Below are positions 26,816 through 32,986 of a stretch of DNA of 64,000 nucleotides, in pieces; positions within the stretch are counted from its first letter, which is position 1, and every line of letters begins with the position of its first letter. The stretch is from assembly GCF_000689395.1 (NCBI RefSeq), contig NZ_HG966617.1:2640721-2704720 (forward strand), in the 5' to 3' direction. Position numbers and translations under genes: made by a program. The notes under the pieces were generated by a model. It did not search any database, was not told the origin of the DNA, and saw only the letters and a list, made by a program, of their open reading frames with translations. The DNA comes from Candidatus Phaeomarinobacter ectocarpi (GTDB taxonomy: Bacteria > Pseudomonadota > Alphaproteobacteria > CGMCC-115125).

Positions 26816-26903
26816 GCGCTTGAAGACCTTCCCCTCCCTGCCATAATGCCGCGCCACGTTTTCCTGATTGTGTTTTGGGAAATGGCCAGCAGGGAAATCA
26901 CAG

Positions 26904-28085
26904 ATGAGTATGCCTACCCCTTTCACCATCTCGATACCGCAATCCAAGCTCGACGCCATCGCCCGCAAGGTGCGCGACTTCGAGTGGATCGATGTGCCGG
27001 AAGGCAAAGACGCAGGGGATGGGTGGTCTTACGGTGCGGACCAGGACTATCTGAAGGAGTTCTGTGCGTACTGGCTGGACGGCTATGACTGGCACCACTG
27101 GGAAGCTCAGCTGAACACGCTGCCGCAATTCATTGCGACCGTGAACGACATCGACATCCACTATGTGCACATCAAAGGCTCCAACCCGAAAAACCCACCC
27201 CTGTTGATCACCCATGGGTGGCCAGGATCCTTTTTCGAGTTTGTTGATGTTCTCGACCGCATCGCCAACCCGGCTAGTTATGGCGGCGAGGAAGCAGACG
27301 GGCGGGATGTGATCGCCCCGTCCATTCCCGGTTACGCTTTCTCAGGTCGCCCGCAAAAGCCCATGGGCCCACGCGCTGTTGCAGCGCTTTGGAATGCCTT
27401 CATGCGCGATGCCCTGGGCATTGAAAGCTACATCGCCCAGGGCGGTGACTGGGGCGCCATCATTTCCGGCTGGATAGCGTTTGATCACAGCAAGGACAAA
27501 CAGGGCGGCTGCCTTGCGGTTCACCTGAACTTTCTGGGTGTGCGCGGGCACATGGAACCAAAGACGGAAGAAGATCAGGCATGGATGCAGCATTCAGCCG
27601 GCATGCAGCTGTTTGAGACGGCGTATTTGCAGATACAGGGCACCAAGCCGCTGTCACTGACCATGGGCATGTCGGATTCGCCTGTCGGTCAGGCAGCTTG
27701 GATACTCGAAAAATTCTACACCTGGGGTGACGTGAAGAATGGTGACATCGAAAGCGCTTTCACCAAGGACCACCTTCTCACCAATCTGATGCTCTACGTC
27801 GCGACTGACACCTTCAATACCGCCACGTGGATGTATCGCGGCGTGTTTGAAGAAGGCGGCGTCAACCTGCCGCCAGGCGAGACAATCGACATCCCCACAG
27901 GCATCGCAAATTTCCCCGGTGACACCGTCTATTCGTGGCCACCGCGCAGCATGGTGGAAGCCGGCTACAGCAACATTGTTCAGTGGACGGACCATGAAAA
28001 AGGCGGCCACTTCGCGGCCCTGGAACAACCAGACGCCTTCGTTGCCGACGTCATGGCATTTCTGAAACAGGCGCCCACAGAATAG
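26904..28085 (+). CDS. Epoxide hydrolase, EHN family (copy 1)
   Basis: This alpha/beta-hydrolase-fold epoxide hydrolase has 393 residues from ATG 26904. The N-terminal EHN domain (about 5-110) wraps the core. HGWPGS at 104-109 forms the oxyanion region, the nucleophile is Asp182 in GGDWGA, and the catalytic His369 lies in KGGHFAALE. It opens epoxides to diols by an Asp-ester intermediate. It lies 11 bases upstream of a second family member, so an operon is likely. Confidence 0.93.
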   Translation: MSMPTPFTISIPQSKLDAIARKVRDFEWIDVPEGKDAGDGWSYGADQDYLKEFCAYWLDGYDWHHWEAQLNTLPQFIATVNDIDIHYVHIKGSNPKNPPLLITHGWPGSFFEFVDVLDRIANPASYGGEEADGRDVIAPSIPGYAFSGRPQKPMGPRAVAALWNAFMRDALGIESYIAQGGDWGAIISGWIAFDHSKDKQGGCLAVHLNFLGVRGHMEPKTEEDQAWMQHSAGMQLFETAYLQIQGTKPLSLTMGMSDSPVGQAAWILEKFYTWGDVKNGDIESAFTKDHLLTNLMLYVATDTFNTATWMYRGVFEEGGVNLPPGETIDIPTGIANFPGDTVYSWPPRSMVEAGYSNIVQWTDHEKGGHFAALEQPDAFVADVMAFLKQAPTE

Positions 28086-28096
28086 AGGCAGGACCC

Positions 28097-29314
28097 ATGC
28101 ACCCCAGTATCGCTGCAGATCCCTTCACCATTTCAGTCGCTGACCATGAACTGGCTGACCTGAAGCAGCGGCTCGCCAATACCCGTTTCCCCAACGAGCC
28201 GGACGGCAATGACAGCTGGGACTACGGCACCAACCTTTCCTACATGGAACGGCTGATTGAGTACTGGCGCGACGACTATGACTGGCGCGCGGCTGAAGCG
28301 CGGCTCAACCGGTTTGACCATTTCCGCGCCACCATCTCGGGCGATGATCTGGGTCTGCCGGACGAAGACCACCAGATCCATTTCATCTATGAACGCGGCT
28401 CCGGCAAAAACCCGCGCCCGTTGATCCTGACCCATGGATGGCCATCAACCTTTGCTGAATTCGAGCACGTCATTGAACCCCTCGCTCACCCGGAAAGGTT
28501 CGGTGGCAGGGAAGAAGACGCATTTGACGTGATCGTCCCTTCATTGCTGGGCTTCGGGTTTTCCTCCAAGCCGCGCACACCGGTTGGACCATCCGCAATC
28601 GCCGAGTTGTGGCACTGCCTGATGACACGGGTGTTGGGTTATGACCGCTATTGCGCGCAGGCGGGCGACTGGGGCTCTTACGTAACGTCACGGCTCGCGC
28701 TCCAACACGGCGACCAGCTGGATGCCATCCACCTCACCATGTTGCCGCTGCGCCCTGCCATTTCAGGCGGCGGCGAGCCGGTAACACAGGAAGAAGCTGA
28801 CTGGATCAAGAACATGCGCGGCTGGTGGGCGCAGGAGGAAGGCTATCGCGTCATCCAGGGCACCAAGCCCATGGCGCTGGCCTTTGCTGTAACGGACAGC
28901 CCGGCAGGCCTCGCCGGCTGGCTGGCAGATAAATACTACCGCCTGGGCGACACCGAAAAATCCCATCCCTACGAAGGTATGGATCAGCGCTTTCCCATGG
29001 ACATGATCCTGACCCAGCTTTCCATCTACTGGTTCACCGGCACCATCAACTCCGCCAACACGCTCTACAAAGCCGGACCGATGGAACGCACAGACAAGCT
29101 CAAGCCCGGCGAACGGGTGACGGTGCCAACAGCTTATTCAGAATACCCAATGGATGTGTTGCCCCGCACGCCGGAAAGCTGGGGCAGCCGCTGCTACGAC
29201 ATAAAGCGCTGGCGCTTCATGGAAAAAGGCGGCCACTTTGCGGCCTTGGAAGAACCGGAAATCTTCACGCGTGACGTCCAGGACGCCTTCCGCGAGTTGC
29301 TTGGAAAAATCTAG
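28097..29314 (+). CDS. Epoxide hydrolase, EHN family (copy 2)
   Basis: This 405-residue paralog of the preceding gene has HGWPST at 113-118, the nucleophile Asp191 in AGDWGS, and the catalytic His380 in KGGHFAALE. Divergence between the two is considerable outside the motifs, so this is an old duplication or two separate acquisitions, with different substrates likely. GAGGCAGGA precedes the ATG. The stop is 22 bases from the convergent accA. Confidence 0.93.
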   Translation: MHPSIAADPFTISVADHELADLKQRLANTRFPNEPDGNDSWDYGTNLSYMERLIEYWRDDYDWRAAEARLNRFDHFRATISGDDLGLPDEDHQIHFIYERGSGKNPRPLILTHGWPSTFAEFEHVIEPLAHPERFGGREEDAFDVIVPSLLGFGFSSKPRTPVGPSAIAELWHCLMTRVLGYDRYCAQAGDWGSYVTSRLALQHGDQLDAIHLTMLPLRPAISGGGEPVTQEEADWIKNMRGWWAQEEGYRVIQGTKPMALAFAVTDSPAGLAGWLADKYYRLGDTEKSHPYEGMDQRFPMDMILTQLSIYWFTGTINSANTLYKAGPMERTDKLKPGERVTVPTAYSEYPMDVLPRTPESWGSRCYDIKRWRFMEKGGHFAALEEPEIFTRDVQDAFRELLGKI

Positions 29315-29336: not shown

Positions 29337-30296
29337 TTAGGCGATGCCTTCACGGCCCATCGCCAGGAACTTCTGGCGACGCTGCGCAACCAGCTCGTCA
29401 CCGGACAGGGGGGCAAGAGCGGCCAGCTCTTCTTCAATCGCTTTACCGGCCTCAGAAATGATCTGCGCCGTTTCGCGATGCGCGCCGCCAATCGGTTCAG
29501 GCAGAATGCGGTCAATGACACCAAGCGACAGCAGATCCTGCGCGGTGATGCGCATCGCCGCGGCCGCGTCCTGTGCCTTGTCCGAAGAGCGCCATAAAAT
29601 GGATGAGCAGCCTTCCGGCGAGATCACCGCGTAAATCGAATGCTCTAGCATCAGCACCTTGTTGGCGGCTGCAATGGCTACCGCGCCGCCGGACATGCCT
29701 TCGCCAATGATGACGGAGATGAGCGGCACCTTGAGAGACAGCGACCGGTCGATGGAGCGCGCAATGGCTTCAGCCTGGCCGCGGGCTTCAGCATCCTTGC
29801 CCGGATAGGCACCGGACGTATCCGCCAGCGTGATCACCGGCATCTGAAAACGCTCGGCCAGCGACATCAGACGGACGGCCTTGCGATAGCCTTCCGGGTT
29901 TGCCATGCCAAAATTGTGCTTCAGGCGGGACTGGGTATCGGACCCCTTTTCCTGACCGATCACGACGACTCGGCGCCCATTGAGACGGCCAAGGCCGCCT
30001 TCCACCGCATGGTCTTCACCAAAGGAACGGTCACCCGCAAGCGGGGTGAAATCCGTGATCAGACGGCTCACATAGTCTTTGAAGTGGGGCCGGTTTGGAT
30101 GACGGGCCACAAGTGTCTTCTGCCACGGCGTCAGCTTCGCGTAGGTATCGGTCAGCAACTGCGACGCCTTGGTTTCAAGACGCACGACCTCGTCGCCAAT
30201 CTGCATGGTCGGGTCTTCTGCCGCCATCCGGCGAAGTTCCTGGACCTTGCCTTCCAGCTCTGCGACCGGCTTTTCAAACTCGAGATAACTATGCAT
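29337..30296 (-). CDS. accA: Acetyl-CoA carboxylase carboxyltransferase subunit alpha
   Basis: AccA pairs with AccD to move the carboxyl group from biotin to acetyl-CoA, giving malonyl-CoA. The 319-residue protein has the usual length and motifs: MHSYLEFEKPVAELEGKV at the start, then GRRVVVIGQEKG, TLADTSGAYPGKDAEARGQAEA and GEGMSGGAVAIAAANKV. It is a single gene, divergent from the ECF41 module. Confidence 0.98.
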   Translation of the reverse strand: MHSYLEFEKPVAELEGKVQELRRMAAEDPTMQIGDEVVRLETKASQLLTDTYAKLTPWQKTLVARHPNRPHFKDYVSRLITDFTPLAGDRSFGEDHAVEGGLGRLNGRRVVVIGQEKGSDTQSRLKHNFGMANPEGYRKAVRLMSLAERFQMPVITLADTSGAYPGKDAEARGQAEAIARSIDRSLSLKVPLISVIIGEGMSGGAVAIAAANKVLMLEHSIYAVISPEGCSSILWRSSDKAQDAAAAMRITAQDLLSLGVIDRILPEPIGGAHRETAQIISEAGKAIEEELAALAPLSGDELVAQRRQKFLAMGREGIA

Positions 30297-30421
30297 TGGA
30301 AGTGTTTGCGACCCTTTGATGAAGACGCGGCAAACTGGCGCGGGACCCTTGGATTGTCAACAAATTCGCACGTCGAGGCTTAAGCCGGGCGCGCCTGCGC
30401 CAGTGAATTTTCATATGGGAG

Positions 30422-30448
30422 TGTCACAAACCCGTTGAAAGGACCGTC
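30422..30448 (+). promoter_or_regulatory. ECF41-type promoter upstream of the AhpD-like / sigma operon
   Basis: TGTCACA (30422-30428) and CGTC (30445-30448) are separated by exactly 16 bases, which is the published ECF41 promoter pattern. It lies 55 bases before ATG 30504 of the partner gene and reads towards the sigma gene, so the module very likely controls itself. Confidence 0.85.
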
Positions 30449-30503
30449 TTTAGGGAAAATCGCCCGGTTTTGGGCCATTTCACTTTCTTTCAAGGAGTAT
30501 GAC

Positions 30504-31082
30504 ATGACACAGAACATTGGTCCCATCTCATGGTTCGCTGAACGTAGCCTGCGCAAGATGGAAAAACGCTACGACTACAGTTTCGATTATGTCCGCTATC
30601 TCTGGCATGTCTCGCGCCCTGCATTTCGGCGATTCACCTTCGGGTTCATGTGGTTTGCCACCGGCCGCGAGGTGCTGCCTGCGGATGCCAGTGCCGTCGC
30701 AGGTATCGTCAGCACACTGCATGCCGATTGCGGCCCCTGCACGCAGATCACGGTGAACATCGCCGCAGAAGCGGGCGTATCGGCAAGCGTTCTCAGTGCC
30801 GCCGTGTCAGGTGATCTCAATGCATTGCCGGAAAACCTCGCGCTGGTGTACCGGTTCACGCACGCAGTGGTGAATGCGGATTACAACGCAGGTGAGATGC
30901 GCGAGGAAGTCATCAAGCTCTATGGCGAAAAGAGCCTTGCTGACATGGCCGCCGTCATTGCGGCCGGCCAGGTGTATCCCTCGCTGAAGCGAACGCTTGG
31001 CTTTGGTGAAACCTGCCTCAAGGTAACCGTCAACCAGCATGACGTTGACGCGCACCGCCTTGGAGCCAAAGCTGCGGCATGA
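30504..31082 (+). CDS. AhpD/carboxymuconolactone-decarboxylase-like protein, ECF41 partner
   Basis: The product has 192 residues from ATG 30504, which is preceded by AAGGAG. Cys76 and Cys79 in ADCGPCTQ form a CxxC pair as in AhpD-type CMD folds, which points to a redox role. ECF41 sigma genes are known to travel with 'COE' genes (carboxymuconolactone decarboxylase, oxidoreductase or epimerase), and this is such a case. Its stop overlaps the sigma gene start by four bases (ATGA). The physiological substrate is unknown. Confidence 0.85.
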   Translation: MTQNIGPISWFAERSLRKMEKRYDYSFDYVRYLWHVSRPAFRRFTFGFMWFATGREVLPADASAVAGIVSTLHADCGPCTQITVNIAAEAGVSASVLSAAVSGDLNALPENLALVYRFTHAVVNADYNAGEMREEVIKLYGEKSLADMAAVIAAGQVYPSLKRTLGFGETCLKVTVNQHDVDAHRLGAKAAA

Positions 31083-31984
31083 CCATGGCTGAAGAAACAG
31101 ACGCCTTCGAGCAGGTCCGCCCGGACCTGCTGCGGCTCGCCTATCGCATGACAGGCGGCCGCGCGGAGGCTGAGGACATCGTGCAGGACGCGTGGCTGCG
31201 CTGGAACCGCGCGGACACGTCAGACGTGATCAATCCCAAGGCATGGCTCTCGCGAACCGTGGCACGACTTTCCATCGACCATCTGCGCAAGGTCAAAACA
31301 CGCCGGGAGACATATGTCGGCCCGTGGCTGCCAGAACCGGTGGTAACTGACATGCCGACACCAACACCTGACGACCCAGGTCACGCTGTTGAACTGGCGC
31401 AGGACGTCTCGCTTGCCCTGATGTCGGTTCTTGAAACCCTCAAACCGGAGGAGCGGGCGGCCTTCCTGCTGCGCGAGGCATTCGAGATGGATTATTCCGA
31501 TCTCGCCTCAACACTGGGCAAAAGCGAAGACGCCTGTCGTCAGATGGTGTCGCGCGCCAAGACACGCCTGCGCAGCAATCGCCCCCGGTTTGAAGCGTCA
31601 GACGAGGAACACGAGGAATTGCTGCTGGCGTTCGCAGCAGCGGCTCAGGCCGGAGACATCTCGACCCTGACACGGTTGCTCACCCCCAATGCCAGCCTGA
31701 CATCAGATGGAGGTGGCAAAGCGACCGCCGCCCTGCGTGTGGTCAGCGGTGCGGAAGAAGTGGCCAAGCTCACCGCCCACATTGCAACGAACAAGGACGC
31801 CATGAAGGGCGACATCGAAGCCCTGCGCATCAACAACCGGCCCGGCTTCTACATCACGCTCGACGGCAAAATTGAGGTCAGCTACTCTATCGATGTGGAA
31901 GACGGGCGCATTGCGGCGCTTTACATCATGCGCAATCCGGACAAGCTGCAACGCCTGCTGGACCCACCGCTGGGCAACGCCTGA
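31079..31984 (+). CDS. ECF41-family RNA polymerase sigma factor
   Basis: This 301-residue sigma factor has region 2 (AEDIVQDAWLRWNRA), the linker WLPEP at 83-87 and region 4 (YSDLASTLGKSEDACRQMVSRAK). A SnoaL/NTF2-like C-terminal extension follows, with the ECF41 hallmark motifs DGGGK at 210-214 and NPDKL at 286-290. In this group the extension takes the place of an anti-sigma factor and both activates and restrains the protein. No anti-sigma gene is nearby, as expected. It is translationally coupled to the AhpD-like gene. Confidence 0.95.
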   Translation: MTMAEETDAFEQVRPDLLRLAYRMTGGRAEAEDIVQDAWLRWNRADTSDVINPKAWLSRTVARLSIDHLRKVKTRRETYVGPWLPEPVVTDMPTPTPDDPGHAVELAQDVSLALMSVLETLKPEERAAFLLREAFEMDYSDLASTLGKSEDACRQMVSRAKTRLRSNRPRFEASDEEHEELLLAFAAAAQAGDISTLTRLLTPNASLTSDGGGKATAALRVVSGAEEVAKLTAHIATNKDAMKGDIEALRINNRPGFYITLDGKIEVSYSIDVEDGRIAALYIMRNPDKLQRLLDPPLGNA

Positions 31985-31990
31985 TGTGAC

Positions 31991-32986
31991 TTAGGCCTTT
32001 TTGGCTTTTTCGCGACGCGCAATCTCACGGGCCTTGTCCACAATCACATTGGCCTGCTTGATGGACGCCGCATCAATCAGCTTGCCATCCAGAGACACGG
32101 CTCCCGCACCGGCCTTCTGACTGGCCTTCATCTCCTTCAAGATCCGCTTGGCCTGCTTCACGTCATCGGCAGGCGGCGTATAGAGCTCATTGCCAAGCGC
32201 AACCTGGCTTGGATGAATTGCCCATTTGCCTTCACAGCCAAGAATGGCCGAGCGACGCGCCTGCGCGCGATACCCATCCGGATCAGAGTAATCGCCAAAC
32301 GGCCCGTCCACCGGGCGCAGACCATTGGCCCGCGCAGCAGCAATCATCTGCATCATTGGTGTGTGCCACAAATCCTGCCAGTGGAAATCCCGCTGCCCGT
32401 TTTCGTCCGGGTCCAGAAGAATGCCGTAATCGGGGTTCGGCCCACCGATGTTCGTCGTGCGCATACCCATAGAGGCTGCAAAGTCAGCGGCGCCAAAATG
32501 CAGCGCCTCAAGACGTGGGCTCGCCGCAGCGATTTCATTGACGTTGGCCAGACCCATGGCGCTTTCGATGATCACTTCCAGCCCAAGTTTCTTCTTCCGG
32601 CATGTCGCGGTTTCGATCTGCGTCACCAGCATATCGATGGCATAGATGTCTGACGCGGTGCCGACCTTGGGGATCATGATCAGGTCCAGCCGCTCACCGC
32701 CCTGCTCCATGATGTCCACCACATCGCGATAGCAGTAATGGGTATCCAGCCCATTGATGCGCAGCGAGAGCGTCTTGTCGCCGAAATCCTCTTCATTGAG
32801 AGCCTTCACGGCCTTTGCGCGGGCATCCACCTTGTCGTCAGGGGCCACCGCATCTTCAAGGTCCAAGGAGATGACATCAGCAGGGCCCTGAGCAGCCTTC
32901 GCAAAGAAATGTGGGCTGGAGCACGGCACAAACAACTGAGAGCGGTTGAGACGGGATGGCGCGGCCTGAATGGACGTGAAGCTCAT
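31991..32986 (-). CDS. CoA ester lyase of the malyl-CoA lyase type
   Basis: This 331-residue HpcH/HpaI-CitE fold enzyme has ISLDLEDAVAPDDK, the Mg-site Glu in LEVIIESAMGLANV, and FGAADFAASMGMRTTNIGGPNP. That set is close to the malyl-CoA/beta-methylmalyl-CoA lyases of alphaproteobacteria. It could cleave or form malyl-CoA, methylmalyl-CoA or citramalyl-CoA; the exact substrate cannot be told from sequence. GGAG lies upstream of ATG 32986. It converges on the ECF41 gene with a 6-base gap. Confidence 0.85.
   Translation of the reverse strand: MSFTSIQAAPSRLNRSQLFVPCSSPHFFAKAAQGPADVISLDLEDAVAPDDKVDARAKAVKALNEEDFGDKTLSLRINGLDTHYCYRDVVDIMEQGGERLDLIMIPKVGTASDIYAIDMLVTQIETATCRKKKLGLEVIIESAMGLANVNEIAAASPRLEALHFGAADFAASMGMRTTNIGGPNPDYGILLDPDENGQRDFHWQDLWHTPMMQMIAAARANGLRPVDGPFGDYSDPDGYRAQARRSAILGCEGKWAIHPSQVALGNELYTPPADDVKQAKRILKEMKASQKAGAGAVSLDGKLIDAASIKQANVIVDKAREIARREKAKKA

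Follow-up and report, generated by a model that had tools for sequence, protein, structure and literature searches.

A probably autoregulated ECF41 sigma-factor operon with a divergent AhpD-fold partner gene in Candidatus Phaeomarinobacter ectocarpi

Introduction

ECF41 sigma factors form a widespread group. The founding study identified neither the signal that induces them nor their physiological role. The closest described modules are ecf41Rsp-RSP_0606 of R. sphaeroides, ecf41Bli-ydfG of B. licheniformis and rpoE9-SMb20029 of S. meliloti, in each of which the sigma factor is accompanied by a CMD/AhpD partner. The WLPEP motif is a hallmark of the group, and truncation work in two species showed that ECF41 activity is controlled by the C-terminal extension of the sigma factor (PMC3426412). 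In the same study, the partner had no detectable role in signaling in B. licheniformis or R. sphaeroides, and the full-length sigma factor worked in B. subtilis, which has no ECF41. Peroxides and paraquat revealed no phenotype in the published mutants, and phenotype arrays gave none that was reproducible (PMC3426412). The neighboring partner operon is the single target of ECF41 in B. licheniformis and R. sphaeroides (PMC3426412), and S. meliloti RpoE9 likewise controls its neighboring partner operon only (PMC6180224). This single-target behavior appears not to be universal, since an Azospirillum ECF41 is reported to control lateral flagella.

Here, we describe an ECF41 locus in a 64 kb window (the whole stretch of DNA that was analyzed) from the 3.42-Mb single-contig genome of Candidatus Phaeomarinobacter ectocarpi. 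The core of this operon is of the known ECF41 kind and matches the design of Wecke et al. 2012. It resembles the three modules above in the architecture and motifs of the sigma factor, in the promoter TGTCACA-N16-CGTC and in an apparently single-target regulon, and its partner-then-sigma order is the commonest published two-gene ECF41 arrangement. While this type of switch has been known since 2012, the partner family found here and an optional membrane protein, which we call X, are little described. We found no description of the partner subfamily or of the X-containing form in the ECF41 literature searched, the coverage of which was incomplete.

Anatomy of the operon

The predicted promoter lies on the forward strand at 30422-30448 (TGTCACAAACCCGTTGAAAGGACCGTC) and matches the ECF41 consensus exactly, with a -35 element of TGTCACA, a 16-bp spacer and a -10 element of CGTC. 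It is the sole copy without a mismatch in the window. Fifty-five bases separate the end of CGTC (30448) from the ATG of the partner gene (30504), confirming to the base the placement given in the initial annotation. The partner gene (30504-31082, forward strand, 192 aa) is preceded by a good ribosome-binding site, AAGGAG, at 30492-30497, and was identified as a divergent AhpD-fold gene from a family alignment, an AlphaFold2 model and fold matches. It is followed by an ECF41 (SigJ-type) sigma gene (31079-31984, forward strand, 301 aa), identified through Pfam, the NCBIfam SigJ model and an alignment to 5xe7. The two open reading frames have the four bases ATGA in common, as had been noted previously. 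A possible, weak intrinsic terminator, consisting of a six-pair stem and a T-rich tail, is found at the operon end (31979-31996, forward strand); across the region, such structures are mildly in excess (6, compared with 3.3 in shuffled sequences).

The operon is flanked on the minus strand by accA (29337-30296) and by an HpcH/HpaI-type lyase gene (31991-32986), and no anti-sigma gene adjoins it. A block at 30354-30365 (TTGTCAACAAAT) is conserved across the four genomes of the genus and may contain, as TTGACA on the minus strand, the -35 element of the divergent accA. Upstream of accA, two tandem genes of the epoxide-hydrolase type (EHN domain and alpha/beta hydrolase) occupy 26868-29314.

The sigma factor scores 345 bits against the NCBIfam SigJ model (cut-off 271), and its residues 6-290 align with M. 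tuberculosis SigJ (5xe7), a member of the same family, with E=3e-58. Pfam places sigma region r2 at residues 10-72 and r4_2 at 112-164. Beyond these two regions, the only sigma domains present, the protein runs to residue 301 in an extension of approximately 130 aa, which exceeds the minimum of 100 aa that defines ECF41; it is missed by Pfam and recognized through the SigJ match. All three hallmarks listed in the initial annotation are present: WLPEP in the linker (residues 83-87; 31325-31339, forward strand), and DGGGK (residues 210-214; 31706-31720, forward strand) and NPDKL (residues 286-290; 31934-31948, forward strand) in the extension. Among 66 sigma relatives of sufficient length, NPDKL or NPEKL is retained in 65, WLPEP in 64 and DGGGK/R in 54. 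The ECF41 gene and the partner gene each occur once in the genome.

Conservation of the promoter

A single string of this kind is expected occasionally in a genome, and the operon could in principle be read from an ordinary sigma-70 promoter, with the ECF41 match arising by chance. The significance of the promoter lies in its position and its conservation across species. We gathered partner relatives by a class-wide protein search and a peptide-pattern search, both blind to the upstream DNA, and assembled a footprint set of 75 non-redundant loci (529,587 bases). An ECF41 gene lies directly downstream of the partner relative in 71 of these. TGTCAC and CGTC at consensus spacing occur on the sense strand within 650 bp upstream of the partner relative in 67 of the 75 loci (68 sites in all), and no further copy exists on either strand elsewhere in the 529,587 bases. 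The promoter-bearing loci carry the full TGTCACA-N16-CGTC in 62 of 67 cases and a spacer of 16 in 66, and in seven of the remaining eight loci a site with one or two mismatches occupies the expected position. Furthermore, no sigma-70-type site was found upstream on the forward strand. We thus regard a chance match as highly improbable, and the site as a probable ECF41 promoter, defined as TGTCACA-N16+/-1-CGTC upstream of the partner or sigma gene.

The order is represented in the genome collection by four genomes, all of one genus, and the operon promoter is conserved in each of them. In one (G001), the spacer is unrelated and TGTCACG replaces TGTCACA, with TGTCAC and the -10 element intact. 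One locus (L027) has an in-frame TAG in the partner, DFGPC for DCGPC and a truncated sigma match, and is probably a decaying copy of the module.

The partner has a divergent AhpD fold

The partner had been annotated as AhpD-like, which holds at the level of the fold. The AlphaFold2 model (pLDDT 90.8) matches AhpD-fold structures in Foldseek with a probability of 1.00, TM scores of ~0.6-0.67 and a best E of 0.004. A profile of 55 partner relatives finds the Bmp8 debrominase at E=6e-5 and AhpD-like proteins to 0.02, and matches the canonical AhpD proteins that accompany other ECF41 genes at E=5e-6 (probability 86.5%). Bmp8 (6ohi/6ohj), S. pneumoniae AhpD (6e8l) and P. aeruginosa PA0269 share the fold and the position of the CxxC at ~14-18% identity. 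In the partner, the CxxC, a feature of the AhpD branch of PF02627, is C76-G-P-C79. By sequence alone, we rejected membership of Pfam CMD (PF02627), as the protein scores 13.9 bits against a gathering cut-off of 23; of its relatives, 10 of 55 match PF02627 at E<=0.01. The locus has the lack of an anti-sigma gene and the kind of partner (CMD, oxidoreductase or epimerase) expected of ECF41, with the partner assigned by its fold and below the cut-off by sequence.

The likeness to AhpD does not extend to the catalytic residues. The AhpD relay comprises five residues, Glu, Cys, His/Tyr, Cys and His (PMC3141380), and in the alignment the equivalent positions of the partner are A64, C76, P78, C79 and T83. 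Three of the five are replaced, namely the Glu and both His/Tyr positions, which also distinguishes the partner from Bmp8, 6e8l and PA0269. The partner therefore lacks the relay of a functional AhpD peroxidase. Unlike canonical ECF41 partners, it has no CxxCxxxH, carries an additional Lys162 and Cys171, and is ~190 aa long compared with ~150 aa for the canonical partners that were read. The DCGPC motif spans residues 75-79, with its cysteines encoded at 30729-30731 and 30738-30740 on the forward strand, and the codon of Cys171 is at 31014-31016 on the same strand. D75, C76, G77, G141, P159, K162 and G166 are invariant in the alignment (n=55) and C171 is nearly so; P78, C79 and Q81 are also kept by the family. 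In 29 loci sampled without motif bias, DCGxC and the C-terminal cysteine are each found in 27.

Were the partner nevertheless to act like a standard AhpD, as a peroxidase or as the reductant of a peroxiredoxin, the operon would serve in peroxide defense. The AhpD fold, the retained CxxC and the profile matches to AhpD-like proteins are consistent with this; the replaced relay residues and the score below the CMD cut-off argue against it, as does the finding that published ECF41 mutants showed no sensitivity to H2O2, to cumene or t-butyl hydroperoxide, or to paraquat. We consider a peroxidase role unlikely. We read the partner as a cytoplasmic thiol protein, which, judging from its conserved cysteines, would most likely carry out thiol-disulfide chemistry through DCGPC and the third cysteine and not through the AhpD relay, although this chemistry is a guess.

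Autoregulation and the role of the partner

We consider it likely that the locus is a self-contained, autoregulated ECF41 operon, in which the sigma factor is gated by its own extension and the partner is an output thiol protein and not an anti-sigma factor. The sigma factor would be mostly inactive, held by its C-terminal SnoaL-type extension, until released by a signal, for which a small molecule is our guess. The released sigma factor would guide RNA polymerase to TGTCACA-N16-CGTC and transcribe the partner gene and itself, creating positive feedback, with translation of the two probably coupled at the ATGA. Recognition of the promoter, gating by the extension and the role of the partner as a target are what we infer from comparison with the described systems. 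The autoregulated unit proposed in the initial annotation is supported by the operon having its own promoter, two genes and no other conserved target that we could find. The same annotation held redox sensing to be very likely, which fares less well: the published partners showed no signaling role, and the published mutants have no oxidative-stress phenotype with peroxides or paraquat (PMC3426412), which leaves a redox role as hypothetical rather than likely.

A sensor role for the partner would require its cysteines to sense redox and the protein to hold and release the sigma factor in the manner of an anti-sigma factor. The invariant DCGPC, the near-invariant Cys171, the tight gene linkage and the ATGA coupling would all fit such a role. 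It is at odds with the activity of the full-length sigma factor in B. subtilis, with the lack of an oxidative-stress phenotype (both PMC3426412), and with the lack of a detectable signaling role of the partner in B. licheniformis and R. sphaeroides, although the partners there are canonical CMD/AhpD proteins and not of the divergent family. The linkage itself is broken in two genomes, G213 (locus L026) and G267 (L029), where a divergent partner gene with an ECF41 promoter has no adjoining sigma gene and the ECF41 gene of the genome lies elsewhere, beside a canonical AhpD. The simplest reading is that these partner genes are controlled in trans, and hence that the partner is a target and not a cis-linked regulator. 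A sensing partner is therefore an improbable alternative to the partner as output.

By coordinate matching in a class sample, the divergent partner adjoins the sigma gene in 27 of 64 ECF41-bearing genomes; for ECF41 genes without it, the gene that follows the same promoter mostly encodes a canonical AhpD with the GCxxCxxxH motif. A search of plasmids found the partner family in four records only, from Rhizobium and Sinorhizobium fredii, and in none of the S. meliloti plasmid records.

Candidate targets elsewhere in the genome

A genome search for further TGTCACA-N16-CGTC sites, as the initial annotation had suggested, returned four exact sites in total, the operon site included. The relaxed pattern TGTCAC-N17-CGTC yielded 12 sites, compared with five for a reversed control pattern; across the four genomes of the genus, the surrounding context is shared at the operon site alone. 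All but two of the others lie inside open reading frames or just at a gene end or start. The better of these two candidates (G000:C1:1828842) precedes a 90-aa open reading frame; it was dropped because the nearest relative keeps the -35 element but has lost the -10 element (CATG). The second (L160) has a C after TGTCAC. Since no other site tested is conserved, the operon is probably the sole target of its sigma factor. A separate conserved block at L007:1501-1527, with a counterpart in G003 (L162), lies upstream of a gene for a small membrane protein and reads TGTCACA-x-CxGCCATGCGTCACGC. It is probably unrelated to ECF41, as the -35 element is kept and the -10 element is not.

An optional membrane protein

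Unlike the three modules named above, operons related to that in the window often include a gene for the membrane protein X (~127 aa), which lies between the promoter and the partner gene in 58 of the 75 non-redundant loci. In these operons, the promoter is ~440-500 bp before the partner. The operon in the window and those of its genus are of the two-gene form without X. The partner tree shows at least four gains or losses of X on branches with good support, a count to which long-branch caution applies. The protein is His-rich and has four predicted long helices (model pLDDT 96.8), and N16, W27, P32, G33, G38, N41, H43, F44, D47, H83 and H87 are invariant. Comparison with solved structures found no credible relative, and Pfam gave only weak matches, to DUF4345 and DUF6790. 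X may already be drawn, unnamed, among the hypothetical genes that Wecke et al. note for some ECF41 loci.

X and the partner might act together at the inner membrane as a two-component thiol/electron pathway. The partner would contribute the pattern DCGPC...PxxK...LG....C, and X would bind a cofactor or metal through the invariant His43, Asp47, His83 and His87, with the state of the pair acting as the signal of this ECF41 branch. We regard this as a speculative and quite unlikely scheme; if it were true, the genus of the window would use an unlinked X homolog or a variant confined to the cytoplasm. This ECF41 branch, with its non-standard AhpD partner and, often, a conserved membrane protein bearing candidate ligand histidines, thus offers defined residues, and in X a defined second protein, for testing.

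An unlinked X homolog is present in the genome of the window (L092:1489-1869, minus strand; G000:C1:1294030-1294401; E=5.5e-26). No exact ECF41 site was found near it. It retains the conserved His/Asp pattern and belongs to a same-strand run with genes for a TetR-type regulator, a hexapeptide-repeat protein and a GST-like protein, as named from reading of their open reading frames.
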